49,600 bases of DNA. Source: a virus. Positions 101-49,169 of the stretch are shown here, one piece after another. The stretch covers positions 1 to 49,600 of IMG/VR virus record IMGVR_UViG_3300030099_006443. One strand, given 5' to 3'. Positions within the stretch are counted from its first letter, which is position 1; the number at the start of each line of letters is the position of its first letter. The position numbers were made by a program, and so were the translations under genes. The notes beneath the pieces were generated by a model. That model worked only from the letters and a program-made list of their open reading frames with translations. It made no database searches and was not told where the DNA came from.

Positions 101-149
101 AAGAAACAGGAGTAGGAAAGAAAAGCCACTTATTTGGTGGGGGGGTCAT
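1..149 (-). CDS. 5' part of junction-spanning tail-associated gene (first 50 codons)
   Basis: This is the beginning of the gene whose remainder lies at 49173-49500. Reading the minus strand from the ATG at 149 (MTPPPNKWLFF...) there is no stop down to base 1. If base 1 is joined to base 49500 the frame continues to a TAA at 49173, giving about 158 residues. The start overlaps the stop of the upstream fibre-like gene as ATGA (146-149), typical of coupled phage genes. The product is rich in Trp, Asn, Gly and Ser (for example EWRWRSTNNWWNRL) and has no family I recognise. Its position among fibre genes suggests a tail component. Confidence 0.8.
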   Translation of the reverse strand, partial: MTPPPNKWLFFPTPVSSGGETVIDTYNLGGNEWRWRSTNNWWNRLNHGT

Positions 150-871
150 TCAGTGTATTCCACAGAAAATACTACATCTGTAGCAGAGGAGTTTGATGAA
201 AGAACTAAAGAAATCTCAGCATCTGCAGCTACACTTGTATTTGCAAGACTTGTTTGCTCACCACTTGAAGTTGTGACGCTTGCAGCCTTTACGATGTCAG
301 ATCCGTTTTTCAAAGTAGCCGTTACTGAACCACCATACGACTCTATATAGAACCCAGTTATTGTTCTAGCCGTTGCTACATGCGGATCAATGTAGTATGT
401 TTTATTAGATGCAGTTTCAATTTGACCGGTATATGAACCTACATTAGTAACCCCAATACCAGTTCGAATACTTGCGGCATTGTTGTAACTGATAGTTATA
501 AGACCGTCGCCGTTAACGGTGCTTGCTGCAAAACCGCTGGGTACAGCAATTGTCTTGCAACGATTGGTTACTTTTACAGAAGCAACGCCTGCTTCACTAG
601 TTGTCAACTCGCAACCTGCATCAGCAACACCTGTATTTGCAACTACGCTTTGAATAGGTGCTGCTGCAGAAGCTCGGGCATTTGTGTAATACTGATTAGA
701 ACTTCCTTCAGAAAGAGCATCAGTAGTAAGACCAGTAAGACTTGGGGTACCTTGATTAGTAGAGAGGGTAGCAGATTGTTGTGCGGCATTTGTAATACTT
801 ACAGTTTGAGCAGCACCTTGAGTAATTGTAATGGTGTGAGAGATGGTTGTGATTGTGATTGTATTAGACAT
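146..871 (-). CDS. Tail fibre-like protein with QYYTNARA motif
   Basis: A protein of 241 residues, rich in Thr, Ser, Ala and Asn, with low-complexity beta-prone sequence. The N-terminus has alternating Thr/Ile stretches (SNTITITTISHTITIT). Around residue 60 it carries SEGSSNQYYTNARA, a motif that recurs in phage tail fibres and fibre-attachment modules. The start at 871 overlaps the previous stop as TGATG. A TTG three bases upstream is possible but less likely. It sits between a small beta-type protein and the junction-spanning gene. A role in the tail fibre or adhesin is inferred from motif and position. Confidence 0.8.
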   Translation of the reverse strand: MSNTITITTISHTITITQGAAQTVSITNAAQQSATLSTNQGTPSLTGLTTDALSEGSSNQYYTNARASAAAPIQSVVANTGVADAGCELTTSEAGVASVKVTNRCKTIAVPSGFAASTVNGDGLITISYNNAASIRTGIGVTNVGSYTGQIETASNKTYYIDPHVATARTITGFYIESYGGSVTATLKNGSDIVKAASVTTSSGEQTSLANTSVAADAEISLVLSSNSSATDVVFSVEYTE

Positions 872-2753: not shown

Positions 2754-3302
2754 TTATTTTCCACCCGTGATTATGCGACCTTTGGCTGAATTGAGGAGAT
2801 CCTGCTTAAATTCTCCAAACTCATCGTTGTCATTGTTGCCCCATTTTTTATTACGTATAGACATAGACACTTCTTCGTGGCCTTGACGTTTAAGCCAATC
2901 TGCAACACCGTGTTTCTCTTCAATAGCCTCTCTCTCAGCAACCCTCTTAGCCTTAGCCCGCTCCCGGATACCATTTCTCATAGCCTCCGCTATCTCTTGG
3001 GCAGGACGAAGACGCTCCCTCATCCAGTCTTGAGTGGGGGGATGCCAGTTGGGGGGACTATCAAACGCTTCCAACTCCATAAGAATTCCTACACCGTCCT
3101 TCTTAGGATGATAGATCCATTTTGATAAAACAAAAGTATTTGCCGCTTTATGGTGATAGACAAAAAGGTCATCAATACCACTAAAACGTCTAGCCCACAG
3201 AATCCAATCTGAATCAGGAAGAACCTTATGATCTTCACCCAAAACAAGACCCATATCTGCGGCATGAGCTTTTGCGTCAAAGATGATTTCCATTTCAGAC
3301 AT
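2754..3302 (-). CDS. Conserved-looking late hypothetical protein, Trp-rich
   Basis: A protein of 182 residues with many aromatic positions (DSDWILWARRF, NTFVLSKWIYHPKKDG, DSPPNWHPPTQDW) followed by a long charged helix (about residues 105-150). I chose the ATG at 3302 because GAGG lies 9 bases upstream; an ATG at 3317 is possible. The start overlaps the stop of the sigma-like gene. The Trp-rich first half may bind a partner, but no function can be assigned. Two copies of the G6 motif lie in this gene (3034 and 3051 regions). Confidence 0.7.
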   Translation of the reverse strand: MSEMEIIFDAKAHAADMGLVLGEDHKVLPDSDWILWARRFSGIDDLFVYHHKAANTFVLSKWIYHPKKDGVGILMELEAFDSPPNWHPPTQDWMRERLRPAQEIAEAMRNGIRERAKAKRVAEREAIEEKHGVADWLKRQGHEEVSMSIRNKKWGNNDNDEFGEFKQDLLNSAKGRIITGGK

Positions 3303-4211: not shown

Positions 4212-4713
4212 TGTGTTGCCTTTCACGACGGCTAGTAACATACTCCAAGAACTCCGCCGTGCAGTTCTTGTAGTAGTCTTGATGCTCCAACTTTTTGCTG
4301 GCAGCATTTACGACTGAAAGCCTTTGAATAAATACCATTGAATAAGGATCATCAATTAGATGATCCCAATCTTCTAATTCTTCTTCTGGTTGTCCCGGAG
4401 AAACACCATCATCTTCATGACAAAAAGCCATAAGAGTTAAATCATCATTTGATAGTTGGTCATTTTCGGCTTCACACCAACTATCAATATCCCCCCACTT
4501 TGGATCTTCTACAACAACAATCAACAATTCAATGTCATCATTCCAGTTAATGCAGTTTTTGATGACTTCCTTTTTGCCCCCAAAGTCAATCTTAACTTTG
4601 TTTGTAAGCCAAGCCTTACGAGCAAAAGGGCAAGGAGGAAAACCATTGTAGTGGTCTGAAGATCGTTCAAGCACTTGCTTACTCCATTGTTTGATTTCAG
4701 CAACTACTTTCAA
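4201..4713 (-). CDS. Hypothetical late protein with FPPCPFARKAW motif
   Basis: A protein of about 170 residues starting at a TTG (4713), with a possible longer TTG start at 4761. The N-terminal NGFPPCPFARKAW segment resembles a conserved phage hypothetical family known from cyanophages and other marine phages. The rest is acidic (DDIELLIVVVEDPKWGDIDSW, PEEELEDWDHLIDD). Function is unknown. It is the one acidic, mid-sized gene inside a run of tiny basic genes. Confidence 0.75.
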   Translation of the reverse strand: MKVVAEIKQWSKQVLERSSDHYNGFPPCPFARKAWLTNKVKIDFGGKKEVIKNCINWNDDIELLIVVVEDPKWGDIDSWCEAENDQLSNDDLTLMAFCHEDDGVSPGQPEEELEDWDHLIDDPYSMVFIQRLSVVNAASKKLEHQDYYKNCTAEFLEYVTSRRERQHNAR

Positions 4714-8055: not shown

Positions 8056-10039
8056 TCATTGCTCCTTGAGTCATACCGGGACCGGGCTGCGGTCCTCTTT
8101 GTGGTGGTTGTTCCGCAAATATTGCTGCAGAATCTGGGTTAGGCACCATCGCAGGCAATGATGCACCCATGAATTGAATTAATGATTCACGATACTTTTT
8201 AAACTCATCAACAACAAGAGGGTCAGCCTTTGTCATCAAAGGGCTAGACATAAATGAGGACAAGACCCTCAACTGCAATTCAGGACGACTTGTGTGGGGG
8301 GTAATGACCACTTGACCTGCATCAGTACCATTACCATACAACGTAAGGATATTTTGTACAACCTGCTCATATCCTGCCTGATCTTCGTCGATCCACATTG
8401 CAAAGTCAAGACCTTCTTTCAATGCAAACAACTTGAAGCCGTCAGGGTCCATGAGTCCCGACTGCAACATTTGAAGAGCTTCCTGCTTTCGGACAACCTC
8501 GGATCGAGGGTTAACTTGTTTTACCGCAAATGTGAGGTGAGCCACATTGGGGATAGGGTTGTTTTCGAACGAAATCTGACTTGAATCGAAATCCAAAACA
8601 GCACCAGCAAGGTTCAAATCAAACGCCTTGACTGGAATGGGTCGGGGCTTCAACACCAATTCACGACTGGCATTTGCAACCATACTCCTATACATCTTGC
8701 CAAAGGCTTGAACAACGCCCATGGTTGGATTGGTCATGGCTCGATTGATCTGCTCATCGAGGAACTGAAGTCCTGTTGCAGAGTCAACTCGACCCTTCTC
8801 AGCAATGAGATCCTGTACGGGATTGATTCCCTGCATCAACTGCTTAGCAAATGCTGCCGTCTTTCCGGGCACATCTCCCGCGTTATGGGGTGAAATCATG
8901 AAGGGACTGAACTTTTCGTTGAGAGGGTCTGGCTGGTATGAAATCATACGCAGTCCATTACCTACTTCTCGAAGCACAGATCTCTCATTGAATGATCCCT
9001 GCGGCATAACAACCACGCCATATCTGTCCATGTCCCGGATGTTGTTGAACAGAGACTTCAGCATCTTCTCCATCTCACGATTGATGGAGAAAAGGAGGTC
9101 AAAGAGACCTGCACCGTGGAAAGAACCATTTTCCATAAACCGAGAGAACCCAATAGGGCAATAGGTTTGTGTGGAAGAAAGATCTTGATCGTCAATCAAA
9201 TAGTCGCCCGAACAAATAATGTACCTTGAACAAGTGCCGCGAGGACCATCAATCCAAAGTTCTCGGACCCTTACAACTGTCATTGACTCGGAAGGCCCGG
9301 TGGTTGTAATAGGCCGATCATTGAACGGATTTACTGAAAGTTCGGGGTCGTAGGAATCCGATGGGTCTTCGAGAGAATCACCAACTTGAATGTCGTAATA
9401 CTCGCAGTCTTCAAGATTGTTCTTGACCCTCTTGCCAAACTTATCAATCAGAGTCTCAAGGGGAACAATCCGCTGTCTAATTATCCCTGCTTGTTTTGTA
9501 TAGTCTTGCCCAAGAGAGGGGAAGGGTAGAAGTTCTTTGGGGTGAATGACTTCGAGGTCGGCAGTGAGTCCAATTGTTTCGTGGTCAAGGATGTGACCTT
9601 GAATACCGCAGGACCCCAACGAGGTGAATATATGAGCAAACTTCGTGGAAATCTCTGCAATCTGTTCGTCCGAAACCAAGGAATCAGCAAGAAGTTGAGC
9701 TGTTGCTCTTTGGCGAATCATAGGAAGACTGGTTCCAGTCCTCATGATCTTGGGCCGAAGGTCCATAGAAGAAAGCCGGGCAGAAGCACGGTCAATCGCT
9801 GACATCATCTCCTGACTCTGAAACTCCAGATTCCCTTCCTCGTCAAGATAGTGGGGGGATAGGTGACCAGATTCAGGGTTAAAAACATCAAATCGACGCA
9901 TACCGTTTAGGTAGTAGTACGTCAAAAGCCAAGTAACCCTTCTATAAGACAGACGGGAGATTTCTTTTTCGGCGTGTTCTCTTACAACTTGACAGATTTC
10001 ACGCTTATTCTTCGGGAGTTTGAACTTCTGGTGTGACAT
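8039..10039 (-). CDS. Portal protein
   Basis: A protein of 666 residues located between terminase and scaffold. Size and long helical segments (for example REMEKMLKSLFNNIRDMDRY) fit the 12-fold portal ring through which DNA is packaged. The C-terminus is Pro/Gln/Gly-rich (PPQRGPQPGPGMTQG). I identify it mainly by position and length; a podovirus-type portal is likely. Confidence 0.85.
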   Translation of the reverse strand: MSHQKFKLPKNKREICQVVREHAEKEISRLSYRRVTWLLTYYYLNGMRRFDVFNPESGHLSPHYLDEEGNLEFQSQEMMSAIDRASARLSSMDLRPKIMRTGTSLPMIRQRATAQLLADSLVSDEQIAEISTKFAHIFTSLGSCGIQGHILDHETIGLTADLEVIHPKELLPFPSLGQDYTKQAGIIRQRIVPLETLIDKFGKRVKNNLEDCEYYDIQVGDSLEDPSDSYDPELSVNPFNDRPITTTGPSESMTVVRVRELWIDGPRGTCSRYIICSGDYLIDDQDLSSTQTYCPIGFSRFMENGSFHGAGLFDLLFSINREMEKMLKSLFNNIRDMDRYGVVVMPQGSFNERSVLREVGNGLRMISYQPDPLNEKFSPFMISPHNAGDVPGKTAAFAKQLMQGINPVQDLIAEKGRVDSATGLQFLDEQINRAMTNPTMGVVQAFGKMYRSMVANASRELVLKPRPIPVKAFDLNLAGAVLDFDSSQISFENNPIPNVAHLTFAVKQVNPRSEVVRKQEALQMLQSGLMDPDGFKLFALKEGLDFAMWIDEDQAGYEQVVQNILTLYGNGTDAGQVVITPHTSRPELQLRVLSSFMSSPLMTKADPLVVDEFKKYRESLIQFMGASLPAMVPNPDSAAIFAEQPPQRGPQPGPGMTQGAMNVGRN

Positions 10040-10301
10040 TAGGACGTTCCTTGGCGGCTACACCGCCGGGCTTCCAGTGAGAGGGTACATCTAAAGGATC
10101 GAACATTACGTCCTTAAAGTTCATATTCCCCCCACTAACGGGTGGGGTTTCTACTGGAATATCGGTATTACGTGGGTGCGAATAATAGGCTCTTGCCATT
10201 GCTTCATAAAGAAAATAAGGAATTGTGACCGGTTGGTTAGCGGGATTAGACCCGACTTCCTCCGTCAGGTGGTGCATCTGCGGCTCTTGCGAGGAGTTCA
10301 T
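10005..10301 (-). CDS. Small gene between large terminase and portal
   Basis: About 98 residues if started at 10301; ATGs at 10340 and 10277 are alternatives and none has a good ribosome site. It overlaps the end of the terminase gene and the start of the portal gene. The middle (TIPYFLYEAMARAYYSHPRN) looks structured and the rest is Pro-rich. No family recognised. Small genes here often encode packaging or head-completion helpers. Confidence 0.6.
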   Translation of the reverse strand: MNSSQEPQMHHLTEEVGSNPANQPVTIPYFLYEAMARAYYSHPRNTDIPVETPPVSGGNMNFKDVMFDPLDVPSHWKPGGVAAKERPNVTPEVQTPEE

Positions 10302-12186
10302 TGACAAAATCCGGTGATATGTTTTGGAGTTTGTAGGCAAGAGGAGTCCCTACATCATCTACCAACTCCCCGTCCAGAAGACGCTCTTCTGTAGTTCGAT
10401 CATCTTCAATGTTTTCTGGGTTACGATTTACACGACCTTTGAGGATATTACCTGACATTGAGATTGTGTCTAGGTGATCATCCTTGGCAAGACCGCCATC
10501 AGCCACTTCAGGGTTGAACTGCTCAATCTGATCAAACAACATTGACCAATGGCGATCCATTCTTTTCTCAAGTGGAAACTTGATAAGTCCGTTTTCAAAC
10601 CGGAATTGAAGAGCACCAATTCGAGCAGATTTAGAGATCATCCCAACCTTGAGAGGCACGATTTTTGGCATGTGGGCAACTCCAAACATATCAGTTGCTC
10701 GTTGCTTCACCAAACTGTCAAGGTTTTGATAGAGAGCAATGCTCTGGCGGACCACTTCAGGATGGATTGAAGGAACCTGCCACTTGTCTGCAATCTCAAA
10801 AATGTTCTTGATGAGGGTGTTTTCATCACACTGAGCCCCCCAAATATCCAACACAAACAGTTCGTTGTCGGGGGTGGCTGCCATAACGGTGCAGACCTTG
10901 AAGTCTGAGTCACCTGTAGAAGTCCATGACGTATCAACCGTCATAAACATCCAAGAGTCACGAAGAAAATCACAAATAGGCATCGACTTCGTGTTGCCTT
11001 CAAGGTCCTTCCAATTGATGAGCGTTGATGATTCACGGGGACTCAATCCATAAGCAGCATCAACCGATGAAAGCCACCATCTGTGTGAGTCATCAAGTTC
11101 AGGGAAGAATTGATCTTCGCTAGAGCCGGGGTCAGCCATGTACTCAGATGAAAAGTTAGCAGAACCAATCTGCTCCTTGATTTCCTCAAGGCTGATACGT
11201 TCTTTGAGTCGAGGGTCTTCTTCTTTTTGCTTACGATCTACCGGCCACATTTCAGGCCAACAAGAAATCAACTTGTCTTGCTTATCCTTATATGCAGCCT
11301 TGATGATCATTCGGGACCAGTGGTCAAACCGGGGATCACGAGCCTTCAGGCCAAGTTCTGATTCTTGAGTCTCCATGGCGTACCACGCATAGTGGCGGCG
11401 ACTCACAAAGGTCGCCAGCCATCGAAGGCTTGTGCCGGGGCGAGTAATCATCGGCATGACAACCTTAAACAGCAAAGTATCCATGTAGGATCTAAGGACC
11501 GACATGGAAGTAGATGCTCTGGGATCGTACTCGGGGTCATCAAGGACGTAGCATCTGGGACGGCCACCACGCTGCCGTGACTCTGACGAGATCGCCCGGA
11601 ACCAAGATCCATTCTTCAAGTACATCAACTCGATACCAAACGATGCTTCGCCACGACGTGGCACAATCCGATTGTCGTCAAATTCAGGTGCCCAATCATC
11701 AAAGATGCGAGAGTTCTGTTGGAACTGAGTCTTGATGATTTGACCAGTCTGTTTTGCGTTGTCGTTGGTTGATGTTGCGTAGATAAAGGAGTAACCGGGC
11801 CTCGTTAACATTTGAAGGAGGATGGACTTACGAATGCAGTTGGACTTGGCAAACCCTCGGGGTGCGATGGCAATGGACGCTCGGTTCTGTGCCCACTCTT
11901 TGTAAATACCAAGGTGCCCGTCCGGTAGAGGTACGGGATCCTCGTCGTAAAACATGGGGTTAAAATCGTCTGCTTCATCTGGACAAAGATACCAATGATC
12001 GAAAAACAACATGGATCCAATAAAACGATCCGCCTTGTCTTGCGGACTCGTTACAGGAACCAGCCATTGACGGCAGGCATTGACGCGGGCTTCTCTTTGC
12101 CCGTCTTCCGTCAACTCCATGTAATCATGAGGAAGAGGAAACAGTTCGTTTCCTTCTTCTCTTGTTTCAATCCTTTTTATTCTCAT
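10246..12186 (-). CDS. terL: Terminase large subunit (packaging ATPase and nuclease)
   Basis: A protein of 646 residues from the ATG at 12186. The ATPase half has a Walker A-like loop APRGFAKS (residues 108-115) and a Walker B CYVLDDPE (about 212-219), followed by coupling-type sequence. The C-terminal RNase H-like nuclease is suggested by MTVDTS and AKDDHLD acidic motifs. It cuts concatemeric DNA and pumps it into the procapsid through the portal. The start overlaps the upstream gene by 20 bases. An alternative start 12 codons upstream adds a non-typical leader. Confidence 0.95.
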   Translation of the reverse strand: MRIKRIETREEGNELFPLPHDYMELTEDGQREARVNACRQWLVPVTSPQDKADRFIGSMLFFDHWYLCPDEADDFNPMFYDEDPVPLPDGHLGIYKEWAQNRASIAIAPRGFAKSNCIRKSILLQMLTRPGYSFIYATSTNDNAKQTGQIIKTQFQQNSRIFDDWAPEFDDNRIVPRRGEASFGIELMYLKNGSWFRAISSESRQRGGRPRCYVLDDPEYDPRASTSMSVLRSYMDTLLFKVVMPMITRPGTSLRWLATFVSRRHYAWYAMETQESELGLKARDPRFDHWSRMIIKAAYKDKQDKLISCWPEMWPVDRKQKEEDPRLKERISLEEIKEQIGSANFSSEYMADPGSSEDQFFPELDDSHRWWLSSVDAAYGLSPRESSTLINWKDLEGNTKSMPICDFLRDSWMFMTVDTSWTSTGDSDFKVCTVMAATPDNELFVLDIWGAQCDENTLIKNIFEIADKWQVPSIHPEVVRQSIALYQNLDSLVKQRATDMFGVAHMPKIVPLKVGMISKSARIGALQFRFENGLIKFPLEKRMDRHWSMLFDQIEQFNPEVADGGLAKDDHLDTISMSGNILKGRVNRNPENIEDDRTTEERLLDGELVDDVGTPLAYKLQNISPDFVNELLARAADAPPDGGSRV

Positions 12187-12466
12187 GCAGAGTACCACCC
12201 CCCAACATTTCCACTGTAGCAACTCGACCCATAGTAGCTACAAATGAGATGGGGTTGTGCTTTACCATAGAATGCTTGTAGATCGAATCCCAAATACGAA
12301 AGAAGTTCTTAGTGGGTTGATCTTTATCAATAAAGTAACTATAGATCAACGCACCAAATCTTTCTCGGGTTCCAACAACCCCATCAATATCGCTAATCGC
12401 TAAGTCGAATAGTACCTGACCCGCCGATCTCGCCATTCCCATGGGGCCTGTCTGCTTCATCTGCAT
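12167..12466 (-). CDS. Small packaging-module gene between the terminase subunits
   Basis: About 99 residues from the ATG at 12466, which has GGAAGAG about 8-10 bases upstream. The frame is also open to 12589, but that part overlaps the small terminase in another frame and looks like a shadow. The body (GQVLFDLAISDIDGVVGTRE, then FRIWDSIYKHSMVKHNPISF) is helical. It overlaps both neighbours, so tight coupling with packaging genes is likely. Function unknown. Confidence 0.65.
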   Translation of the reverse strand: MQMKQTGPMGMARSAGQVLFDLAISDIDGVVGTRERFGALIYSYFIDKDQPTKNFFRIWDSIYKHSMVKHNPISFVATMGRVATVEMLGGGTLHENKKD

Positions 12467-12855: not shown

Positions 12856-14220
12856 TTACCTTGATTCCTTAAGTGCAGCAGCAATAGCAAGAAGCGGTAG
12901 CGACTTGATAGATCTAATTCTAGGAGTTCGCCCCTTGGACAAAAGTCTTTGTCTCAACTCAAGTGCTTCTCTTTCTTTAGCGTATTGAGAGGCTGCTTTT
13001 TGTATTTGATTTGGAGACTTGCCCTTGACAACGGGCTTATCTTTTACCTTGTTTGCTTCTCGAACAAGCCTACGCCTCTTTGCTTCCGCCATGTTTTGCA
13101 TTTCTTCAGAGGCTTTCGGTGAAACTGAAGTTTCACGATACTGTTTTCGAAGTCTTTCAAGTGCCGTCTTTGTTTGCTTATCCGTTCTTCCAAATGCAGA
13201 AAGGAACTCAGGACTACTCAACAAAGCCCCCAGCTTCGGGTTGAATCTTGCCTTTTCGAAAAGACTCGCCGCACCAATGTAACGAACAGCAGTACCTCCG
13301 TCTTTTGCAAGAACTGTTTTTCCTACAGCCTTACTCAACCTGTTCAAACTATCTTTTGTAAATTTAAGAGGCTTTCCGGTCTTGACGTTTCTTCGGGTAA
13401 TTTCAAATGCGCTTGCAGCCTTGCCTGTTTGCGGAGTAAATACAAACTCCGAGTAATTACCTTGGTCAACAATACGGAACGAACCTCGTTTCTTCAAATC
13501 AGCAACTCTTTGCTGCCTTCTTCCTGTTTCGTCTGTTTTAAATGTTCCAATCGCAGGGACTTCTTTCTTTCCTATGAGGTCTTCGGACTTGTGAATCTTT
13601 TCAGACTCAGGTACAAGTCGAGGAATTTCTCTACGCTGTCTTTGCTCAACAGCAAACTGCTCACGAAGATCTTCAACTCTCTTCTTTGCAGCAGTTTCGT
13701 CAAGACCTGAATCAACCAGTTCTTGAATAAAGTCTTGTTCTATTACAAGCATGTCCTTCTGAGAAAGGTTTCTTACTTGAGCTAACTTTTCAAGCTTTGT
13801 TCCCCCCACTACTTCGGATGCACGGGGAGCATCTCGAAGGAATGCTTGCTTAAGAAGACGTTGGTTTTTTGCAGATTGTTCTTGGGGAATCAAGACTTCT
13901 GACTTAAGAGGACCCTTAATTGATTCAGGCAATTCTTCAAGAGCCCTTCGCTCAAGATCGGCAGGAACATTTCTTCCACGCCTTACTGCTTCCGCAAGTT
14001 CTTCGATGGCGGAAAGAGGATCACCCTTTGGAATTTTCGCTTTTCGTATTCGTTTGCTTTTTCCGCCCTTTTTAGTTTTAGGGGCAATATCTCCTATTTG
14101 AGACATAACAGCAATGTCGTCAACCCCTCTACCCGATTCTTCTAAAAGAAGAATTAGTTGATTCAAAGTATCGTCAAGGTCAGGGCGGACAATTTTTAAA
14201 TTTGGTTTTTTCTTAGCCAT
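12856..14220 (-). CDS. Large basic coiled-coil protein, first gene of the late block
   Basis: A protein of about 454 residues (ATG at 14220; a TTG at 14232 would add four residues). It is rich in Lys, Arg, Glu and Ala with long helices and several basic patches (KKGGKSKRIRKAKIPK). No enzyme motif seen. It is the first gene of the late block, directly downstream of the divergent promoter region and upstream of terminase. A virion DNA-binding or assembly role is possible but not shown. Confidence 0.75.
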   Translation of the reverse strand: MAKKKPNLKIVRPDLDDTLNQLILLLEESGRGVDDIAVMSQIGDIAPKTKKGGKSKRIRKAKIPKGDPLSAIEELAEAVRRGRNVPADLERRALEELPESIKGPLKSEVLIPQEQSAKNQRLLKQAFLRDAPRASEVVGGTKLEKLAQVRNLSQKDMLVIEQDFIQELVDSGLDETAAKKRVEDLREQFAVEQRQRREIPRLVPESEKIHKSEDLIGKKEVPAIGTFKTDETGRRQQRVADLKKRGSFRIVDQGNYSEFVFTPQTGKAASAFEITRRNVKTGKPLKFTKDSLNRLSKAVGKTVLAKDGGTAVRYIGAASLFEKARFNPKLGALLSSPEFLSAFGRTDKQTKTALERLRKQYRETSVSPKASEEMQNMAEAKRRRLVREANKVKDKPVVKGKSPNQIQKAASQYAKEREALELRQRLLSKGRTPRIRSIKSLPLLAIAAALKESR

Positions 14221-14240
14221 TGTCTTACTCAATGCTCTTC

Positions 14241-15815: not shown

Positions 15816-15819
15816 GTGC

Positions 15820-16538: not shown

Positions 16539-16547
16539 TCTCTCCCA

Positions 16548-22268: not shown

Positions 22269-22270
22269 AA

Positions 22271-29913: not shown

Positions 29914-29942
29914 CGCATACCACTTTCATGAAAGGGGAACCG

Positions 29943-30809: not shown

Positions 30810-30810
30810 T

Positions 30811-33892: not shown

Positions 33893-36800
33893 TATTCAGT
33901 AACCGCAGAGTACGGGTCGTAAGTTTCAAAGGTGGAAGGCAACACTCGCATCTTCTCCTTGGCACTCAGATCCAACTCCTCTGGGGTGCGGGCCTTAAGA
34001 CTCTCAAGCCGCTCTTCGAGGTACGGTCTGACAACTGGCCTGAAGTCCTTTGAGATTCGCTGGTACATGCGTTCCTTCAGTGGGATCTCCCTCAACTGAA
34101 GTGCCCTATCTACTTGTTCCTTAGTGACAGACAGCGGGAACTTGAAGCGTTTCTCAAAGTTCACTTTGATACGGTTTGCCTTTTCCATGTTGTTGCCCAA
34201 CATGGCATCCATGTACTTACGGCGTTCGTCAATAACAGCCTGACGGTTCTTGACGAGGAAAGAGTTGAGTTCCTGATCCGTCTTGAACATGTAGGTGTTG
34301 AGACCCAAAGCACCCAACACCGTCTTGGCCGCAGATCGGTACTCCAGCAAACTGCCGTCAGCCCGGTAGATAGGCACCTGACCCTGTTGATCCATAGACG
34401 ACCAGTCAGCAGACTCCCTCTGGAGACCCCCGGCAAATCCTCTGGGCTCAAATACGCGGGGGGCTGCGTTGAGGAGCCTAGAAGCCGCTATGCCGCCCGG
34501 AACAAATCGGGGGGCCATGGCCCCCAAAAGGCTCACATCGTCCTCTGTGACGGCATTAAAAGCGTCTGAGATGATGTCAAAAGCAGGAGACATAGGCAGG
34601 TTGTAGGCGAGATCAGAATCAGGCTCCAACAACATCGGCCCAACAATCGTTGATTCGTAGAGAGTCTGTCCGGGGAGGCCCCTAGACAGGTCCACTCCCG
34701 CAAGGTTTTTGCCAATTTCGTAGGCAATAGCCCCAGTACCCATCATTCGCATAAAGTCGTGAGACATGGCAGTCCAGCGACCTTGCGTCTCAAAGCCCGT
34801 CAACCCCCAAGTACGGCGACCTTGATTCACCATGGGAGCCGTATCGGTCCACGCCGTCAAAGTACGGAGCGGGAACGTAAAGAACTGGCGTACCCACGGA
34901 ATACCAAACCCCGTCCTCTGGAACAGGTCAGGACTGTTAATGAGGTCAGATCCGAACTGAGTATTCTGAACCATCTCCTTTACATTCTCAGCTACCTCAA
35001 CATCGGCAAACTTTCCTCCCCCCACAATGCGGTGAGGGGTGCCGAGGCCAGACTCAGCAAGGTCCTTGATACGGCCCGCTTTCTTCAACTGACCCAACAT
35101 TGCCTCGCCGGTCACGACACGGTTGAAGATTTCAGTATGCGTAAACAACTTCATGGGCACTTCAGAAGCCCAGAAGTCCAGTCCCCCCTGCTTCTTCAGG
35201 TTGGCGGCAGAAGAAAATGCAAATGAATCCAAGATTTCATGGTCAGTTGCACGGATGTCCAAAAGATCTAAGCCCAAAGGGCGATCACCAGTCTCAACGT
35301 TTGAGAGACGGAAATGTTTGGCCCTCAACTGATCCACCAGCAACTTGTCCGCATTAAATGGCATCTTCAAGCGTTCTTGGATATATCCAAAATACTGCTT
35401 CAAGCCTTGGCCGTAAGCCTTGATCATCACATCTGGATCCATCCATGTTGCCGCATACATCAAAGGCTGCATGAGGTTCAACATTGCGGATGGAAGATTC
35501 AAACCAAGGTGGGACACATAAAACGTTTTGGTAATGCCGCGACCAAGAGAACTACCACTAGCATCTTCAAGTGTCATGTCTCCATAGTTGCGAAGACTCT
35601 TTACGAACTTCTCTGGGATACCACCCATACCCTCAAGTTTTTTGAAGGCTTTACTATCAGACATCCTCTTTGCCATGTCTAGGGCTTGAAGAGTAACAGT
35701 CTCACTCACCAAATCCCGCATAGGCATGGCACCACGCATACGTTCTACAAGGCTACCCATGATGTATTCACGGGCTCTTTCACCACCAGCCTTACCAATC
35801 TCATCATCAACGCCAGCAATAACATCTGTTACCGCACGAAGATAGTCATAGCGACTGCGACTTGGACCAAACAAGTCTCGTTCTGACTTGCGCCGAAGAC
35901 CCACTTTCTGACCTTTAAGAGTCTGCTTAAACTCGGCATCAGTCTTGGCCCTCCGAATAAACCTGTCTTTCGTAGCATCATCAATGTGAAGAGCAACATC
36001 ATTACGAGTCTGCTTCAGGTAACGGTTGAAGGAGGTGAGCCAATCAAGATTCATTACCTGAGTACGACCAAACTCCCTCGTAGAAGGATTGGTGAGTTCG
36101 TATTCTCTCGCTCTACCTACTCTCTGCCTCAGCTTTTCAGATGAAATGCCCTTGCGTTCATAGTCTTGAAGAAGAACACTCAAGTCATCCGAGTCAATGT
36201 GGGGGTCATAAATGTTTCGCTCGTTTACCCGACCCGACAAATGAGCAACCCGGTCCTTGCGGTTGACTCGAACACTATCCGTCCTACGCTTGAGAGGTTC
36301 AGCCCCCTCTATATCGTCAACATAAGACCAGACATTTCGGGACATGAAGTGTTCTTGGTCGTCTGCTTCACTACGAACATCACGAAGGATTTTCTTGAAC
36401 TGGTCTGGAGTCATCTTGACTCGACCACGCTCGTCAGGAGTCATCGCTTTAACGATTTTCTTGTAGCCTTCGTTGCCTACAAACCCCTGCAACTCCTTGT
36501 GCAGGACGTTGGAAATTTCTTCTGCTGTCCTTGCACTGGTGTTGCTTGACAGACTGACAAATATACGAGTCAACTTGTCGTCATCAAACTCAAAATTGCC
36601 AGTCCTGTCGTAGAGTTCCTTGTTACCAAAGAGATCGGCATACCGCCCCTTCATCATAGAACGGCTTTGGTCAAGAAGAGGCATAAAACCCTCTCTCGAC
36701 AACCACTGACCGCTGATATTGTCGGTGTCAATGGCTTCAACAACTTCACTCTCAGTCAATACACGGAAAGGTGCTTCACCCTTTTGGTAGGAAGCGTCAC

Positions 36801-37818
36801 TCGCCCTAGTGGGGGTGTAAGAAACACCCGCCTTGTAGTCAACCGTCTGACCTATGTCGTATTGATCTTCAAGATACTTGGCTCGCTTCTTGGCCTGATT
36901 GATAATTAAACGATCAATCTTTTCAACCTCAGGAACATCACCTATCTTGTCTGCATCAATACGGTTTCTTTTCAAACCGTTAATCGTGCTTTGGAACTTT
37001 GCAAGTTTGTCTTGCTGGGCAGGGTCGAGATCGAAAGCAAGACTTTCTCCAGTCTCTGTCTTTACAACAACCTTGGCGTTTTCGACAATACGAGAAGAAG
37101 AACGAACCAAATTCCTGTTCATGCCTGACATGTGCATGTAGGCATAGGTATTGAACTTCTTCAGGTATTCCCGCAACGATACCACTTCACCATCAATAGT
37201 GGCAGTGGCAACTCCTGCATCGTTGGGATCAAGACTCCTGACGTTAGTGCCGAACTTCTTGGAGATATTCTCCAAAGCATCGTCGAAGAATGGCTTCATG
37301 GCAAGAGTGTCTTGTCGAGTCAACTCACTGAAACGAGTCGAAAACGAATGAAGCACAGAACTCAGAGGAGTACCAGCACCATACTGGTGAGCGTTGAGCA
37401 GCCCCAGCATACTAGTGACAGGATTGTACCTGCCGGTAAGGAACTTGAAGAACTCCTTGCCCTCACTGTCAACAGAAGGAACCTTGGAGCGAAGGCCCGA
37501 AAACAACTTCCCCCCACTTTTTAGAGCGGCTCCTCCAGCAGGCGATGTGACAAACATAAACCACACAAAAGGGTTCGTGCCTACATCAATCAAAGCATTT
37601 GTCAGCGGGTTGTTGCCCGTTGACATTTTAAGACGAGACGAGAAGGAGTCCCGCTCTGCCGGTGAAAGCGAGGCGGGATCCAAGAAAGTATCTCGTAGGC
37701 TCCTAAAGGATGCCTCCCCCTCAAACATCTGTGACAACGCCACCATGGGCGCATCGTAGATCTTGATGGGGTCAAACGATCCTGCGACAAAGCCTTCCTC
37801 GTCGAAGCGTTCTGACAT
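33892..37818 (-). CDS. Very large internal virion / ejection protein candidate
   Basis: A protein of 1308 residues, the longest here. It is mostly helical and charged, with a hydrophobic patch near the start (NALIDVGTNPFVWFMFVTSP) and more near residues 770-800. No peptidoglycan-cutting motif is obvious to me. Length and position after the tail genes match the internal core proteins that short-tailed phages eject into the cell. The C-terminal part (RKYMDAMLGNNMEKANRIKV) resembles structural proteins of marine phages. Two G6-motif copies (35018, 37510). Confidence 0.8.
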   Translation of the reverse strand: MSERFDEEGFVAGSFDPIKIYDAPMVALSQMFEGEASFRSLRDTFLDPASLSPAERDSFSSRLKMSTGNNPLTNALIDVGTNPFVWFMFVTSPAGGAALKSGGKLFSGLRSKVPSVDSEGKEFFKFLTGRYNPVTSMLGLLNAHQYGAGTPLSSVLHSFSTRFSELTRQDTLAMKPFFDDALENISKKFGTNVRSLDPNDAGVATATIDGEVVSLREYLKKFNTYAYMHMSGMNRNLVRSSSRIVENAKVVVKTETGESLAFDLDPAQQDKLAKFQSTINGLKRNRIDADKIGDVPEVEKIDRLIINQAKKRAKYLEDQYDIGQTVDYKAGVSYTPTRASDASYQKGEAPFRVLTESEVVEAIDTDNISGQWLSREGFMPLLDQSRSMMKGRYADLFGNKELYDRTGNFEFDDDKLTRIFVSLSSNTSARTAEEISNVLHKELQGFVGNEGYKKIVKAMTPDERGRVKMTPDQFKKILRDVRSEADDQEHFMSRNVWSYVDDIEGAEPLKRRTDSVRVNRKDRVAHLSGRVNERNIYDPHIDSDDLSVLLQDYERKGISSEKLRQRVGRAREYELTNPSTREFGRTQVMNLDWLTSFNRYLKQTRNDVALHIDDATKDRFIRRAKTDAEFKQTLKGQKVGLRRKSERDLFGPSRSRYDYLRAVTDVIAGVDDEIGKAGGERAREYIMGSLVERMRGAMPMRDLVSETVTLQALDMAKRMSDSKAFKKLEGMGGIPEKFVKSLRNYGDMTLEDASGSSLGRGITKTFYVSHLGLNLPSAMLNLMQPLMYAATWMDPDVMIKAYGQGLKQYFGYIQERLKMPFNADKLLVDQLRAKHFRLSNVETGDRPLGLDLLDIRATDHEILDSFAFSSAANLKKQGGLDFWASEVPMKLFTHTEIFNRVVTGEAMLGQLKKAGRIKDLAESGLGTPHRIVGGGKFADVEVAENVKEMVQNTQFGSDLINSPDLFQRTGFGIPWVRQFFTFPLRTLTAWTDTAPMVNQGRRTWGLTGFETQGRWTAMSHDFMRMMGTGAIAYEIGKNLAGVDLSRGLPGQTLYESTIVGPMLLEPDSDLAYNLPMSPAFDIISDAFNAVTEDDVSLLGAMAPRFVPGGIAASRLLNAAPRVFEPRGFAGGLQRESADWSSMDQQGQVPIYRADGSLLEYRSAAKTVLGALGLNTYMFKTDQELNSFLVKNRQAVIDERRKYMDAMLGNNMEKANRIKVNFEKRFKFPLSVTKEQVDRALQLREIPLKERMYQRISKDFRPVVRPYLEERLESLKARTPEELDLSAKEKMRVLPSTFETYDPYSAVTE

Positions 37819-38773: not shown

Positions 38774-39366
38774 TAGAGAAGCCCTACCCTTGCATATGCT
38801 TCCTTGACAGAAGGCTTGGGTTGGTGCCTTGCTTTAAGAAGTTCTTTTATGTCAGAGTCTCTAATAATCTCCATGAGTTCTGGAGAAATTTCAGGCGATC
38901 GATTTTTAATCATGGCTACTCTAGCCGCTTCGCTAGAAACACCTAGCCTGTCACCTGCAAGAAGATTACTCAAAGACTCTTCAACTCTGCCTCCATAACC
39001 AGCACGAGATGCAGCCATGTTTCGTTGACTAGATTGAGCAGACTCGTTAATAGAAGAAAGGAGGTCAAGTATAAGAAGAACATTACCTACAACACCCGCA
39101 CCGTAAAGAAGTTTCTTACCAAGACCGATAGGGACCTTGCCAAGAATGTCCCTTGCCCCAGCAGCATTGGGGGGACGAGTAGGAAGACCAGTAGAACCAC
39201 GAGGAAAACCAAGTGCGGTGCTTTCTGAACGAGAAGGATTTACCGTAAACTCCGCATCGATAACTTCATCAACAGGAGAGCGTTCCCTCGCATAAGGATT
39301 ACGACGGCTAAGAGCTTTCCCCCCACTACCGGGAGGAAGCAGTCCTCTAATTATTCTTCTAGCCAC
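38773..39366 (-). CDS. Late protein with central membrane helix
   Basis: A protein of 197 residues: an Arg-rich start (MARRIIRGLLPPGSGGKALS), a hydrophobic helix near residue 85-105 (LLYGAGVVGNVLLILDLLSS) and a charged helical end. Like its neighbour it could form part of an ejected trans-envelope channel. No family recognised. Confidence 0.65.
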   Translation of the reverse strand: MARRIIRGLLPPGSGGKALSRRNPYARERSPVDEVIDAEFTVNPSRSESTALGFPRGSTGLPTRPPNAAGARDILGKVPIGLGKKLLYGAGVVGNVLLILDLLSSINESAQSSQRNMAASRAGYGGRVEESLSNLLAGDRLGVSSEAARVAMIKNRSPEISPELMEIIRDSDIKELLKARHQPKPSVKEAYARVGLL

Positions 39367-39685
39367 AAGTAATCCTTTCTACAACGTCTTTGCTGGTGAC
39401 CGTTCCCAAAGAAACAATCGAAACATTCTTGTCTTCATCATAACGAGAAACCACAAATGCGCGATCTCTTTTAGATTTTCGGTTGTTTCTATTATCCCAC
39501 AAAAACCGCCGAACGTCCTTGGCATTTATATCGTCACCCTCAAACTCTTCGGAAGTGTCATCATGGATAAACTCCTCTGCCTCTTCAGGAAGATACTCCC
39601 AAGGAACGTGGGGGGACTCAAGAAGCACACGCCCTCCGGGATGAAGAGCCTCAACCTTCTTTGCTATGACTTTCCAATTCCTCAA
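39359..39685 (-). CDS. Small acidic late protein
   Basis: A protein of 108 residues, MRNWKVIAKKVEALHPGGRV, with an acidic middle (EEAEEFIHDDTSEEFEGDD) and a basic part (NNRKSKRDRAF). It overlaps both neighbours by 4-8 bases. No family recognised. One G6-motif copy at 39608. Confidence 0.7.
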   Translation of the reverse strand: MRNWKVIAKKVEALHPGGRVLLESPHVPWEYLPEEAEEFIHDDTSEEFEGDDINAKDVRRFLWDNRNNRKSKRDRAFVVSRYDEDKNVSIVSLGTVTSKDVVERITCG

Positions 39686-42445: not shown

Positions 42446-45400
42446 GGTATATTCCTGTCTCCGGTATCAGTTCCGGTTGTTCTACCCCTGCAAATCAAAG
42501 CCATCAATTTATAATCAAGGTCTGGTACGAAAGTCTCAAATCCGGGATTAAGAGCACTATCCTGAATGCCGTGTTTTCCGGTAGTAGTAAGGCCAGTTGC
42601 AGTAAACGCTGCGTAATCATCAGATTCCCCATTCTTAATAGAATCTCCAATAATACTACCTGAAAAATCTAAAGGAAATGCAGTTACTGCAGCAGAATCT
42701 GTTGCTGTATTGTAAACCTGTCCTTGGAAAAACTTGTAACCAGTGACCCCCCCACTAACGTCTGTAAAGTGGCAGCCTACCGAAGAAATTTGCTTGTTCT
42801 GGAACATATCAAAAGACGTAATAACTTTTTTGTCTTCGCTGCGAATCATTGGCAAAGCCCCACCTATATAACGAACCTTCATAGGGCTAATCGTAATTAC
42901 GTCATCAACAGCAATGTTACTAAATTTATTGGTGACAATATCAATGCTTCCACTGCCATCAGCATTCACAGTGCCTTTGTCGTGTTTAAAAATTGTCTCG
43001 TTGGTGCCTACATTTTCTGGAGTTGAAGAAGACAATATGTACATTTGAGAACCTACTAGATCTCCAAGCAAACTACTGTTATGGCTGAGATTCTTAGTTC
43101 CAGTAGTTCCGCTTTTTAATCCAATAGTAGTGATACCTGAACCTTGAGTTACAGAGTGAACTGTAAAAATAGAATCACCCGGACAATCTAAAGTTCGAAG
43201 CATCGGTTTGCCATCAGAAATATCGGTGCTTCCTACCAAAACTTTGTTTCGATCAATATCTAAAATATAGACTCGTGGTCTCCAATCATCAGTAATACTA
43301 CTGGCAGTAGTCGTTGGATGATTTTGGAGAAAGAAAGACCTCTCCACCATTACTGTAGAAGTAGTAGGAGTAGGAGTAGTGTTGTCGTAGGAATTTCGAG
43401 TATACGTTTTTGGCCACATGCCAGAACGTATATCAGTGAAATTTGTGTCGTGAATTTCCGTGATCCTGCCAGTATTAAACCACATGCAAGCAGTTTGATT
43501 GGCAATAGGATTCATAATAAAAAGACACGAAGCGTACGGATCATATGCCATACGAAGATCTGAAAGATTAGATTTCCAATCTTCCATAATCAAATTGTCA
43601 AGGGCTTGAACATCGTCTAGTTGACCATTGTTGGCGATTGCTTTCAAACCTTTTGACGTAATAAAGTAACAAAGAGGACCAGCAGAAGCGAAAGCGTCTT
43701 GAGCAGCAAGACCATATCCTGCATGCATATCTTCTATTTTAAGATAAACGCCATTACGACGAATGTGATAAATGCGATCAGAACTAAAACCTACTACAAA
43801 CTCACCAGCTTTAGCTAGACGTTCAACCCTATTCTGATAAACGTCAGGCGTATACTTGTTGTTGATAGGGAACAGTTCAGGGCTTCTTTCGGTCAATGAT
43901 GACCAACGAATCTCCCCAATGTTGCGAGTACGAGAATCAAGGTTAGCAGTAAGAAGTTCAGTTTCACCTTCGGGGTCAGAAACTAAAAGAGTACCGTCAT
44001 AAGCAACACCAGATCCTGCAAACGGCATATCTTTTTCACCTTCATTCTTGTCCAAATATATGTCTTGCATCGCAAGAGACAAGTCAGGAAGTTGGTAGAA
44101 ACACTCGTAAACACGATAGCCTGCTGTCCGATAGTTACCAGAAACAACATTCCCCCCACTAAATGCTGCGGGGGGATTAGATGAACACATAGTGTCCCAG
44201 TTGCTTGTGTGGGAAATTGTGGTATCCCCCAAACCAACAACCGCCTGCGTCATCGAGATCTTTCCTGCGGTCGAATCTCCATTGGCTACAACTGTGATGG
44301 TCCCATTGTGACCATTGGCCCCATTGACAAGAGCAGCAAAGTTCGTAGCACACTCTGAAATACTGCTACCTTCATTAAACTCTAGGTTCGAAGCAACAGC
44401 ACCAGTGTTTTTGATTTTATAAGTCTTTGAAGTTCCTGCTGCATCTTCAAGAGTAATGGTCTCGTTTTCATGAGCTCCAAAGTCAGAGCCGAAAACAAAA
44501 GATGCAGTTGCACCAGATACAGGGGTTGATTCAGTAATGCCTTTATACGAAGCATTATTCTTAGTGCCAGTATCGCCTTCTGAATCAGAGATATTGTAAA
44601 TGGTATCAAGATGGAGAATAGACCCTGCATAGGTCCCCCCCACTTGCTGAAGTTTGACTGATCTAAACAAATAAATCTGATCATACTTATTGATGTCTAC
44701 TTCAGCTTCCATGCTAATGTATTCACCACTAGTGTCCCATGCAGAGCCTTGGGTTTGAGAAGATTGCCTGTTGGAAATAGAACTAAGAAGACTTCGACGG
44801 CCAGTATGACTGTCGTGAAGAAAATAAGCAAAGCTGTAATCCCCCGGAGATAACCTTACAAAGTGAGGTGCATCATTATTGGGAGTGCTATTTGCAGGAG
44901 TGCTAGTAGTATTGAGGAGTTCGCCAAACGGAATAACAGTAGATGGAAAGGAAGTGCTTCTAGGAATAGAAACAGGAGTAGTATCGCCAAAGCCTCGAAC
45001 AATAGGGGCAGGTCCCGGTCCTCCATTTACAACTTGATGGGTATAAGTGGAAGTACCGTCAAAGTCAATATAGAAAACACGAGGAACCCGACCCTTGACA
45101 AGTGTAATTACATACTTGCCCATCGATACGACATCCATTTTGTCGTTGCTAGAAACATGACCTCCCGCAGACGAACTGTGATCGCTGATCAAAACAGTAC
45201 GCCAACCAGTAGCACCGTCTACTGTATTAGTTGGACAAAAATCCATGTAAATACCTGAGTCGGTATTAAGTATATTTTTTACTCGATAAACAAACCCGTG
45301 GCCAAATTCGCCCTCTCGGATTTGAAAACTAACTGGAAAACAATCAGTGACAGTAGAAGTCTTCGCCTGAGTGGGGGGAGCCACAGAAGAGAATGCACGA

Positions 45401-45865: not shown

Positions 45866-47829
45866 GGTACGTCCAATACTCCATCTTCACAACTACTTCC
45901 CGGGACTTCGTTATCAGGAATGCATTCAAGACTTATAACTGATTCGCTAATGCTGTAATCAACAGATATATCTCTAGTTCCAGAATCTACATTTGGAATA
46001 GATTGAGATGTTGCAGGAGAAGGCAGTTGAAAACTCCAAATTGGTTCGCCGTCTCGAACTAAATTACAAGCATAATTTCGACTACCATCAAAATTTATAT
46101 GAGCGAGTCCTGCTTCTGGGTCAAGATAAGCACCATCAAGAACACCATTATTTAAACCAAAGCCTGCACCAAATCCCCAAGCATTTGCAGAGTCATCCCA
46201 AAGACGTTGTAAATCTCCACCGTCTTTATATTGCCTATCGAAATCACAACCATTAACTGCAAGAGATGTTTCATCAGCACCATTCCAACTCAATGCAGTA
46301 GTGAGCTCTGCGATTGAAGGAAAATCTGTCCAATACATAGAATTGTATTCAGGGGTGTCATCACAACAACACATTTCTTTAGCATCATCTTGAAGCATAG
46401 CGGTTGTTATGCCAATAGGAACTGTGCTTATAACTGGACCAATTATAGTCTCATCAGTTGTACCACCAGCATCTGTAAATGTAGACTTGTATGTTGCGGT
46501 TAATTGAAGATACAACTCTCCACAATTCAAATAATTCATAATGCATTGATCAATGGCAATATCTAAAGGACAAACTTGATTATTTGGATTTGGTGTTCCC
46601 GAACATTCAGCACCGTCTTCATACAAACAAATTCTTTTTTCGAGCCTTGCTTCGGTAATGAGAGGAGGCCTAGTTGTAGAAGGCGTTCCTTGATCAACTA
46701 AAGAAATTGAAGCATTAATCATTTCATCTTTAGCAACTTCCACACTTAGTATTGAACCAGAACATCCGGGTCCCGAAAATGTAGTGCGTGTAGAAGTCGC
46801 TAAAAAATTCCATGTGTGACTGAAACTTACATTGTCAATAACGACACAAGGGTTCTTTGCATGTTCGCTTAAAATTATTGGTACAGGATCAGATGAATCT
46901 CCTGTTGACTGATTTCCTTGCATGTAAACCGTGTAATCAATAATTACTTGAATATCAAAGTTGTAGTCTGAAGTGGCAATCGTCTTTGACGTATTAACAC
47001 AGTTTTCAATGTTTTGATTAATGTTCCAGTTGTTGAATGTGACAGTCTTTCTTCCTTTGTACTCCAGCTTGGAAGGATTGGAAGATCCCGTTCGATTACA
47101 TTCTTGGGTTCTACATTCAACACAAGCAGGATCATTGCAACCCCCCGACTTCAAAACAAAAGTCATACCGCTAGTGCTGTTGCAATTAGTACAACCAATA
47201 ACTTGAACATCATCTGTATCAGGAGAACATTTTTCACATGGGGGAGTGTTATCTGGATGAGAACTGTCAAAACAAAGATTAGAAGTTGACCCATTGTTTT
47301 TTAGAGTGCCACAAAATTTGTGACAAGGATCACCTTCAATAGGATCACCGTTGTCGTCTACATGACAACAAGGATCTCCATCAGTCCTAGTAAATTCCCA
47401 AGTCCCTGCATAACTAGATGGATTGCTAGAATCAATTGTTATGCTAAGAAGGTCATTCCAAACATCCGCAACTGCGGCCATTGTATAAGTATTGCAGGCT
47501 TCATTGCAGGGAGTAAAAAAGTAGTATGGTTCAGGGCAATCGTCGTCATCACAATCATCTTGTTTTTCAAACCCCCCACTAGGTGCGGGGCTTCCGCCTG
47601 CAAAAGCAGTTTGCAATTTACCGCAATAAACGCAAGGTATTTCTCGATTACCATTGTCGTACTTATAAACATCATCTTCTTGGGGAGTTTGTCCGAGAAT
47701 TGTTTCCCATTGACTTTTTGTAGCAAAGAAAGTGTCCGCGCAAGGATCAGTGCCCGGACATGGCACAAAGAAAAATACAGTATCAGGGTCAATACAACAA
47801 CAACTAATAACCGGACCTGTCACGGACAA
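45862..47829 (-). CDS. Very cysteine-rich tail protein
   Basis: A protein of 655 residues with 39 Cys (6%); 24 lie in the first 240 residues, in clusters such as SCCC, CVYC, DPCCHV, CEKC, CTNC and CVECRTQEC. Between them are Asp/Ser/Thr-rich beta segments. Such a pattern in a phage tail protein suggests many disulphides or bound metals. It sits between a fibre-like protein and the nozzle, so it may form the receptor-binding tip or a stiff spike. No family recognised. Confidence 0.8.
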   Translation of the reverse strand: MSVTGPVISCCCIDPDTVFFFVPCPGTDPCADTFFATKSQWETILGQTPQEDDVYKYDNGNREIPCVYCGKLQTAFAGGSPAPSGGFEKQDDCDDDDCPEPYYFFTPCNEACNTYTMAAVADVWNDLLSITIDSSNPSSYAGTWEFTRTDGDPCCHVDDNGDPIEGDPCHKFCGTLKNNGSTSNLCFDSSHPDNTPPCEKCSPDTDDVQVIGCTNCNSTSGMTFVLKSGGCNDPACVECRTQECNRTGSSNPSKLEYKGRKTVTFNNWNINQNIENCVNTSKTIATSDYNFDIQVIIDYTVYMQGNQSTGDSSDPVPIILSEHAKNPCVVIDNVSFSHTWNFLATSTRTTFSGPGCSGSILSVEVAKDEMINASISLVDQGTPSTTRPPLITEARLEKRICLYEDGAECSGTPNPNNQVCPLDIAIDQCIMNYLNCGELYLQLTATYKSTFTDAGGTTDETIIGPVISTVPIGITTAMLQDDAKEMCCCDDTPEYNSMYWTDFPSIAELTTALSWNGADETSLAVNGCDFDRQYKDGGDLQRLWDDSANAWGFGAGFGLNNGVLDGAYLDPEAGLAHINFDGSRNYACNLVRDGEPIWSFQLPSPATSQSIPNVDSGTRDISVDYSISESVISLECIPDNEVPGSSCEDGVLDVP

Positions 47830-49169
47830 ATGGCCTTAATTTGAGAAGGTCCTGCAAATACCCAACGATTAGAAGAAATCTGTTGAACTAAAACAATATC
47901 ACTAACAGAATAGGGAGCATAAACCAAAGTTGCACCCGAATCAGTCAGGCTAGTTGGATTCTTATGAACGTAACCAATATTAGGCGTTATGACTTGATTA
48001 AAAGAGTTAAAGCCAAAATCCCAAATCTCTTTGCCTGTAACATGAGAAAAATTTGAGGATGAGTTACCCAAGCCATCTGCAGTACCAACACTTGCTTTGT
48101 ACTTATAGTAATAAACCAATACGCCCAAGATATTAATGCTTGAAATACCTCCTTCAATGCTAAGGTCTTCAGTAATCCTTGCAAGTTGAGTACCAAAGCC
48201 TGCATGAGGAACTGGAGTTAAAGAAAAACGAACTTCGTCAGTTCCTCCCGGAGAAGCATTGTTGCCATCAATTACGAGAACATCTTTGACAACTGTATTT
48301 GTAGTGTTGTTGGTGAGCTTAAGAGTTTGATTTTTTTCGTCCGCAGATATCGACGTATCATCAGTTTGAATTGTAGAATAAGAATGAATAGCTTCAGTTA
48401 ATCCAACTGTTATAGTGCTACCAGAAGCCTCTGTACTAATTCCAGTACCACCTGCAATGTCAAGAGTTGAATTTTGTGCGCTTGCAGTTAAAACATTACT
48501 GTCATCAGAAGTAAAGTTTTCAAATAGATTTCGTTTGAACTCTACCTTTAATGTATCTGCGCCTGATTTATCAGTATTGATATATGAACCTGAACCTTGA
48601 GGGTCAGTAGAATTATAATCACCCGCAATGTTTATGTTGTCGTCAGGACCACTAGCATTAATTGAATTACCACTATTATCTACAACAATACCAAAACCAT
48701 CTGAAGCAGCATTTGACTCTGCTGCTTGGACTGCATTCTCAAACTGAGTAGTGTCTAAACTAACTACATAATCTTTACTGTCAGTGTCATCAGCTGCAGG
48801 ACTAACGGTGACAGGATTGTAATCTGTCCCGCCAATCGTAAGTTGAGAAGCACCTGCCGTTACTGTAGCAAAGTGAGTGTTAGCTCCTCCTCCCCCCACA
48901 TTATCAATATTGAAAATTGTGGGGCTAAAGATTTGTTGGTTTATCTCTGGGGTATTGTTAAACCTATTGCCGTCACTAAAGTTCGTTGCTCGACTTTGAG
49001 AGTTAGGTAGTCTTAAAGAATACGGGGTATCTGAGATAGTCCCTGACATACGAGTTACTTGACTAAAACCATTCAAAATAGTTTTAGGCCAAGTCTTTAA
49101 TGTAACAGGGTAACTATCACCGGGAACTAAACCATAAGGCTGACTTCTACTTGTTGTATTGATGTACAT
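47820..49169 (-). CDS. Tail fibre / spike-like protein
   Basis: A protein of 449 residues, Asn/Ser/Thr/Asp-rich with beta-repeat character (TVTAGASQLTIGGTDYNPVT, GISTEASGSTITVGLTEAIH). The C-terminal part (YYKYKASVGTADGLGNSSSN) looks like a fibre-tip segment. No chaperone or enzyme motif seen. It overlaps the Cys-rich gene by 10 bases. Fibre role inferred from composition and location. Confidence 0.75.
   Translation of the reverse strand: MYINTTSRSQPYGLVPGDSYPVTLKTWPKTILNGFSQVTRMSGTISDTPYSLRLPNSQSRATNFSDGNRFNNTPEINQQIFSPTIFNIDNVGGGGANTHFATVTAGASQLTIGGTDYNPVTVSPAADDTDSKDYVVSLDTTQFENAVQAAESNAASDGFGIVVDNSGNSINASGPDDNINIAGDYNSTDPQGSGSYINTDKSGADTLKVEFKRNLFENFTSDDSNVLTASAQNSTLDIAGGTGISTEASGSTITVGLTEAIHSYSTIQTDDTSISADEKNQTLKLTNNTTNTVVKDVLVIDGNNASPGGTDEVRFSLTPVPHAGFGTQLARITEDLSIEGGISSINILGVLVYYYKYKASVGTADGLGNSSSNFSHVTGKEIWDFGFNSFNQVITPNIGYVHKNPTSLTDSGATLVYAPYSVSDIVLVQQISSNRWVFAGPSQIKAICP

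Follow-up and report, generated by a model that had tools for sequence, protein, structure and literature searches.

Gene content of the window

The window, by which we mean the whole stretch of DNA analyzed, is a virus record of 49,600 bases from IMG/VR with a G+C content of 45.2%. Genes were called by a simple longest-ORF rule, which performs poorly in G+C-rich genomes. Late genes run leftward, whereas the early genes (14427-33457) run rightward. The large terminase (10246..12222, minus strand; phrog_38, 3e-42) was used as the basis of the family tree and as the reference for orientation. The early genes include a D5-type helicase (14427..15815, plus strand; D5_N, DUF5906, and Pox_D5), DNA polymerase A (22265..24397, plus strand; PF00476, 1.6e-24), an ERCC4 nuclease, a uracil-DNA glycosylase, a PD-(D/E)XK nuclease, and a Sak4-like recombinase. 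Among the family matches listed for the window there was no AEP or TOPRIM primase domain, the D5 protein consisting of the helicase part only, and no family of the RecBCD inhibitors Gam or Abc2; for PHROGs the list covered 25 of 32 families, and the phage may carry inhibitors of other kinds. The window also encodes a protein with a match to a family of phage sigma factors (phrog_1740, Sigma70_r4_2). Beside the terminase lies a minus-strand ORF of 458 codons (12856-14232) that had no family match and whose sole relative found is in the near-identical record G001.

The PD-(D/E)XK nuclease (28211..29536, plus strand; PF12705, 3e-9; phrog_1218 exonuclease) has the fold of the RecB/AddB nuclease domain. 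Its predicted structural model (pLDDT of 87) is closest to the nuclease chains of AddAB and RecB, with AddAB chain B as the best PDB match. The adjoining Sak4-like recombinase belongs to the RecA superfamily (29910..30809, plus strand; phrog_124, 2.5e-10; AAA_24, 3e-14). It is followed by a small protein (30754..31323, plus strand) that is conserved in 19 of the 22 family records described below and for which no family match was found; judging from its position, we would guess at a single-strand-binding role.

A G-rich word is over-represented in the window

By exact counting on both strands, the window contains 26 copies of GTGGGGGG (8 on the plus strand and 18 on the minus strand) and 21 copies of the longer GTGGGGGGA (6 plus and 15 minus). 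The totals and the 18-to-8 excess of the C-rich form on the top strand agree with a preliminary description made by eye. Plus-strand copies of GTGGGGGGA lie at 3034..3042, 9851..9859, 18254..18262, 26869..26877, 39608..39616, and 45371..45379. Minus-strand copies lie at 4490..4498, 10127..10135, 13801..13809, 19855..19863, 21525..21533, 22624..22632, 26341..26349, 28332..28340 (within the nuclease gene), 31442..31450, 31899..31907, 35017..35025, 37509..37517, 39318..39326, 44151..44159, and 48891..48899. In the remaining copies of GTGGGGGG, the octamer is followed by G rather than A (137..144, plus; 42748..42755 and 44636..44643, minus) or by T (8294..8301, plus; 47572..47579, minus). The related word GGGGGGACTA occurs five times, at the four positions already reported (3051, 23814, 29181, and 33082) and on the minus strand at 31439. 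The symmetric form AGTCCCCCCACT is present once, at 31440, as reported, and includes the intergenic copy at 31442..31450. Forms of the word rank first among the 8-, 9-, and 10-mers of the window, TGGGGGGA (27 copies) standing beside GTGGGGGG among the 8-mers.

Synonymous-codon shuffling within each gene yielded a mean of 2.4 copies of GTGGGGGG (maximum of 6 in 60 shuffles) and of 1.3 copies of GTGGGGGGA (maximum of 5), which puts the Poisson probability of the observed excess at about 1e-18. The preliminary estimate of well under one expected 9-mer was too low against this null, because the shuffles keep the glycine codons that the sites themselves supply. Words of similar composition were not equally frequent: each single-base variant of GTGGGGGGA has 0 to 4 copies in the window, compared to 21 for the word itself. 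When reversed, the word has no copy in the window and few in relatives.

Given that most sites are genic and many encode glycine, the word might be suspected of arising from base composition, codon use, or motifs in the proteins. This explanation is already contradicted, and we consider it extremely improbable: the enrichment outlasts the codon-preserving shuffles (26 copies versus 2.4), the near variants are scarce, and the sites occupy all three frames and both strands (12 sense, 10 antisense, and 4 outside gene calls), the diversity of frames and the intergenic copy having been pointed out before. Copies are also conserved above background, and sister clades with overlapping G+C contents differ in their word (see below). 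The word is therefore real, and the earlier argument that codon choice or a protein motif does not explain it holds.

Each lineage of an uncultured phage family has its own word

The window is a member of a family of uncultured phages in IMG/VR with genomes of about 50 kb. We found 74 relatives by terminase and at least 97 by nuclease; no INPHARED phage was related to the window in terminase, nuclease, or Sak4. Three relatives carry exact end repeats of 127 bases, like closed assemblies, and are about 51 to 54 kb in size. Our first set consisted of 22 records, including the window, of 26 to 54 kb (family records are mostly not proven complete), and four records (G439, G440, G441, and G443) were added later.

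Each of the 22 first-set records had a G-rich word as its top 8-mer relative to codon-preserving shuffles, and three of the four later records (G440, G441, and G443) repeated the enrichment; genomes of the same clade are not independent, so these counts overstate the evidence. Long family genomes contain 17 to 63 copies, and all of the long relatives examined, whose terminases share 52% identity or more, have a single G-rich word as their top 8-mer. Of the other contigs with the nuclease module and a length of at least 7 kb, nearly all ranked a word of this class first or close to first, those without a clear word being L564 (9.5 kb) and the outgroup contig L632. In the outgroup G439 (terminase, 44%), the nuclease and Sak4 have homologues, but a strong G-rich word is missing. 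Words of the CGGATGGGACT type are repeated there (L675 and L676) in place of a G-rich octamer.

The spelling of the word differs between clades. The consensus is AGTGGGGGGA in the window clade, GTGGGGGGGA in G009 and G443, CGTGGGGGGAC in G016, G019, G020, and G034, CTAGCGGGGAA in G029 and G037, and CTAGTGGGGAA in G035. A sister clade (G021, G023-G026, G028, G032, G036, G440, and G441) has the consensus GGCTGGTGGGG, which includes the E. coli Chi sequence within its letters; likewise, AGCGGGGA includes the B. subtilis Chi, AGCGG. Mapped onto a 60-row terminase tree, the word labels require four changes, the minimum for five labels, compared to 19.8 for shuffled labels. The word is thus inherited along the tree. 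Across the family, GTGGGGGG is seen at G+C contents from 41 to 61%, and a word that stays constant over such a range is not a product of composition. In two contigs of the G009 clade (L570 and L571), we also observed strong enrichment of the palindrome TGCCGGCA (8 copies versus 0.3 expected and 10 versus 0.7), perhaps a modification or binding site.

Conservation, turnover, spacing, and orientation

The preliminary description had asked whether copies are conserved in position or only in number, and both occur. At orthologous codons, word copies were mostly conserved 2 to 5 times as often as the remaining 8-mers in those genes. When the window was compared with G033, 9 of 19 copies were conserved, compared to 12% of all 8-mers and 22% of other G/C-rich 8-mers; between G036 and G024, 14 of 20 were conserved, compared to 20%. 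The excess was smaller in close pairs and absent in two distant pairs (window versus G019 and G003 versus G033). Many copies are lost and regained elsewhere, so that the number is held while the positions turn over. Whether one clade's word replaces another's in place is unproven: word-type B stood in the place of word-type C at 14 of 244 sites, compared to 1 of 244 for permuted words, but the change from A to B showed no excess (8 versus 11 for permuted words), and conserved glycine stretches, which would also suit a by-product reading, explain part of the A-to-B co-location.

Sites were spaced more regularly than random in 18 of 19 genomes, with mean intervals of 0.8 to 2.6 kb. Relative to the terminase, the G-rich strand was favored 2:1, the sign being shared by 21 of 22 genomes. 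The bias is equal in early and late genes and follows the polarity of the genome, not transcription, which indicates a signal acting on DNA. We had also considered strand polarity as proof of a Chi site. The bias, which the preliminary description had noted, was abandoned both as such proof and as separate evidence, because codon shuffles show an equal bias (71%, compared to 67% observed) and the general G skew reproduces it.

Regular spacing and strand bias could reflect replication, with a primase or a D5-helicase replisome starting lagging-strand synthesis at the word. The intervals resemble Okazaki fragment lengths, and some phage AEP primases, such as that of NrS-1, use a specific 8-base site. 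We nevertheless consider a priming site quite improbable, since no primase domain was detected among the matches listed for the window and the D5 protein is a helicase part only. One-third of the sites are also oppositely oriented, and 9 to 11 bases is long for such a site. The primase site proposed in the preliminary description is so far not supported.

A protein of any kind that requires G-rich sites scattered in a set orientation would leave the same pattern. The word might be the binding site of an abundant protein of the phage or the host, for example a KOPS-like guide for the packaging motor, a nucleoid site, or a modification site, and the constancy of the bias relative to the terminase is in line with this. 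Such a role seems improbable to us: the bias lies within the G skew, the sites do not cluster near the terminase, and no methyltransferase occurs among the family matches listed. The packaging and modification signals suggested earlier thus find no support so far.

A nuclease-recombinase cluster accompanies the word

Long genomes of the family keep the nuclease, Sak4, and the small third gene together as a conserved cluster. The nuclease was found in 17 of the 22 records, including the window; the five records lacking it (G001, G002, G006, G023, and G037) are each shorter than 38 kb. An apparent absence from the clade with the enriched core TGGTGGGG proved to be a gene-calling artifact in G+C-rich DNA, as tblastn recovered the nuclease.

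We infer that the nuclease is a candidate for a phage-borne reader of the word. Together with the Sak4-like recombinase, it would read the word and pause or stop there, leaving 3' tails for recombination-dependent replication, and the word would drift with the nuclease. Several observations are consistent with this: the conserved cluster, the presence of the family word on nearly every nuclease-found contig of 7 kb or more, the resemblance of the fold to AddAB and RecB nuclease chains, a word that follows the phage tree with minimal changes while G+C varies, and the lack of visible enrichment outside the family. In addition, lambda exonuclease shows sequence-specific pausing, at GGCGA (PMC7496540). 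On the other hand, the nuclease has a single domain, without a helicase or the Chi-binding part of RecC/AddB; the outgroup G439 has homologues of both proteins and no such word; and the power to detect unrelated carriers was low. The linkage is inseparable from ancestry, because nearly all long family genomes carry the nuclease and Sak4 genes. Overall, we regard a phage-borne reader as a minority possibility, on the unlikely side. The fuller version, in which nuclease and Sak4 form a Chi system of the phage's own that acts independently of the host, with a coevolving spelling that marks "self" ends, is doubtful to a slightly greater degree. If the reader is phage-borne, the family would have a self-marking system; we know of no phage with a system of this kind. 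The nuclease is small enough for a direct test.

Search for a host and for carriers outside the family

The sole cellular genome with a family phage was a Myxococcales metagenome-assembled genome (MAG; G038). Three of its contigs hold 29 of its 36 word copies; two of these are shown to be family members, and the third (C72) is word-rich. The word is not enriched on the other contigs of this MAG, and it did not reach Chi-like density in 141 Myxococcota genomes. Contigs C7, C18, and C72 look like pieces of one family phage, and the word positions on C18 agree with those in the IMG/VR record from which L179 derives (G189). We rejected Myxococcota as the host: the tetranucleotide correlation between phage and MAG was 0.43, compared to 0.92 to 0.98 among the MAG's own contigs, and the terminase was found in only 1 of 379 genomes, this one MAG.

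Scans for close pairs of the word in unrelated phages had low power, and only family members stood out; the negative result weighs little, because only 1 of 154 family loci contains such a pair. Among the matches listed in a scan for opposite-strand pairs, most seemed to be hairpins. Enrichment of the word outside the family was not seen in these low-power scans. An unrelated viral contig (L430, 10261-11414) contains an array of regularly spaced GTGGGGGGA pairs, which is probably a tandem repeat. None of the papers searched contained the family words.

A proposed Chi-like site and its relation to known systems

Of the roles listed in the preliminary description, a Chi-like site fits best, and the suggestion is borne out by a word that is G-rich, asymmetric, 8 to 11 bases long, over-represented beyond composition and codon use, dispersed, evenly spaced, and kept by selection. 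With about as much confidence as doubt, we propose that the word is a Chi-like site, maintained by selection throughout the family, that limits how far a RecBCD/AddAB-type enzyme degrades phage DNA ends. The reader would most likely be the host's RecBCD- or AddAB-type helicase-nuclease. With copies every 0.8 to 2.6 kb, an enzyme degrading inward from a DNA end would meet one early; on reading it in the correct orientation, the enzyme would halt degradation and pass the 3' strand to a recombinase. Such a halt would protect the ends and could aid the building of concatemers for packaging, and the changes of word between clades may track shifts in host Chi specificity. What we infer from the pattern is who reads the word, that the reader stops and loads, and that the phage gains from it.

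This proposal agrees with what is known of phages and bacteria. Phages equipped with a recombinase but lacking a RecBCD inhibitor over-represent Chi, the T5-like and P1-like ones most strongly (PMC3784561), and a Chi-like role suits the window phage because it encodes a Sak4-like recombinase, with neither Gam nor Abc2 among the matches listed. It also fits because shortness, asymmetry, and richness in G are shared by the known Chi words, namely, GCTGGTGG in E. coli, AGCGG in B. subtilis, and GAAGCGG in S. aureus (PMC8022716), and because one sister-clade word holds the E. coli Chi. Against it stand an orientation bias no stronger than in codon shuffles and the outgroup G439 without a strong G-rich word. 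A host Chi is further opposed by the low density of the word in the MAG (a weak link) and the 141 Myxococcota genomes and by the pair scans, which had little power and found no unrelated phage sharing the word.

To our knowledge, Chi sequences have been determined for few bacteria, and almost nothing is known of how their spelling evolves. The family places no fewer than six related spellings on a single tree, its gains, losses, and conservation of sites can be counted, and it is thus a natural record of the evolution of a Chi-like signal. If the word is read by the host, it predicts the Chi words of uncultured hosts.

Among phage replication enzymes, NrS-1-type PrimPol also reads an 8-base site, but no primase domain was found in the window, and its word is dispersed genome-wide. 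Lambda exonuclease, a phage enzyme that works by itself and pauses at a G-rich word, is a precedent for a phage-borne reader, although the window nuclease is RecB/AddB-like; the lambda text consulted places GGCGA at the left cos end and makes no claim of genome-wide enrichment (PMC7496540). The family words share with bacterial Chi their richness in G, asymmetry, and shortness (PMC8022716). The sister-clade core TGGTGGGG nevertheless differs from the E. coli GCTGGTGG, and AGTGGGGGGA of the window matches no Chi listed in that source. A further close parallel is the phage Chi of Bobay et al. 2013 (PMC3784561), likewise an octamer that is dispersed and over-represented where a recombinase is present and a known RecBCD inhibitor is not. 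Those phages have a known host with a known RecBCD and a single, fixed host word, whereas in this family the word takes at least six forms along the phage tree.
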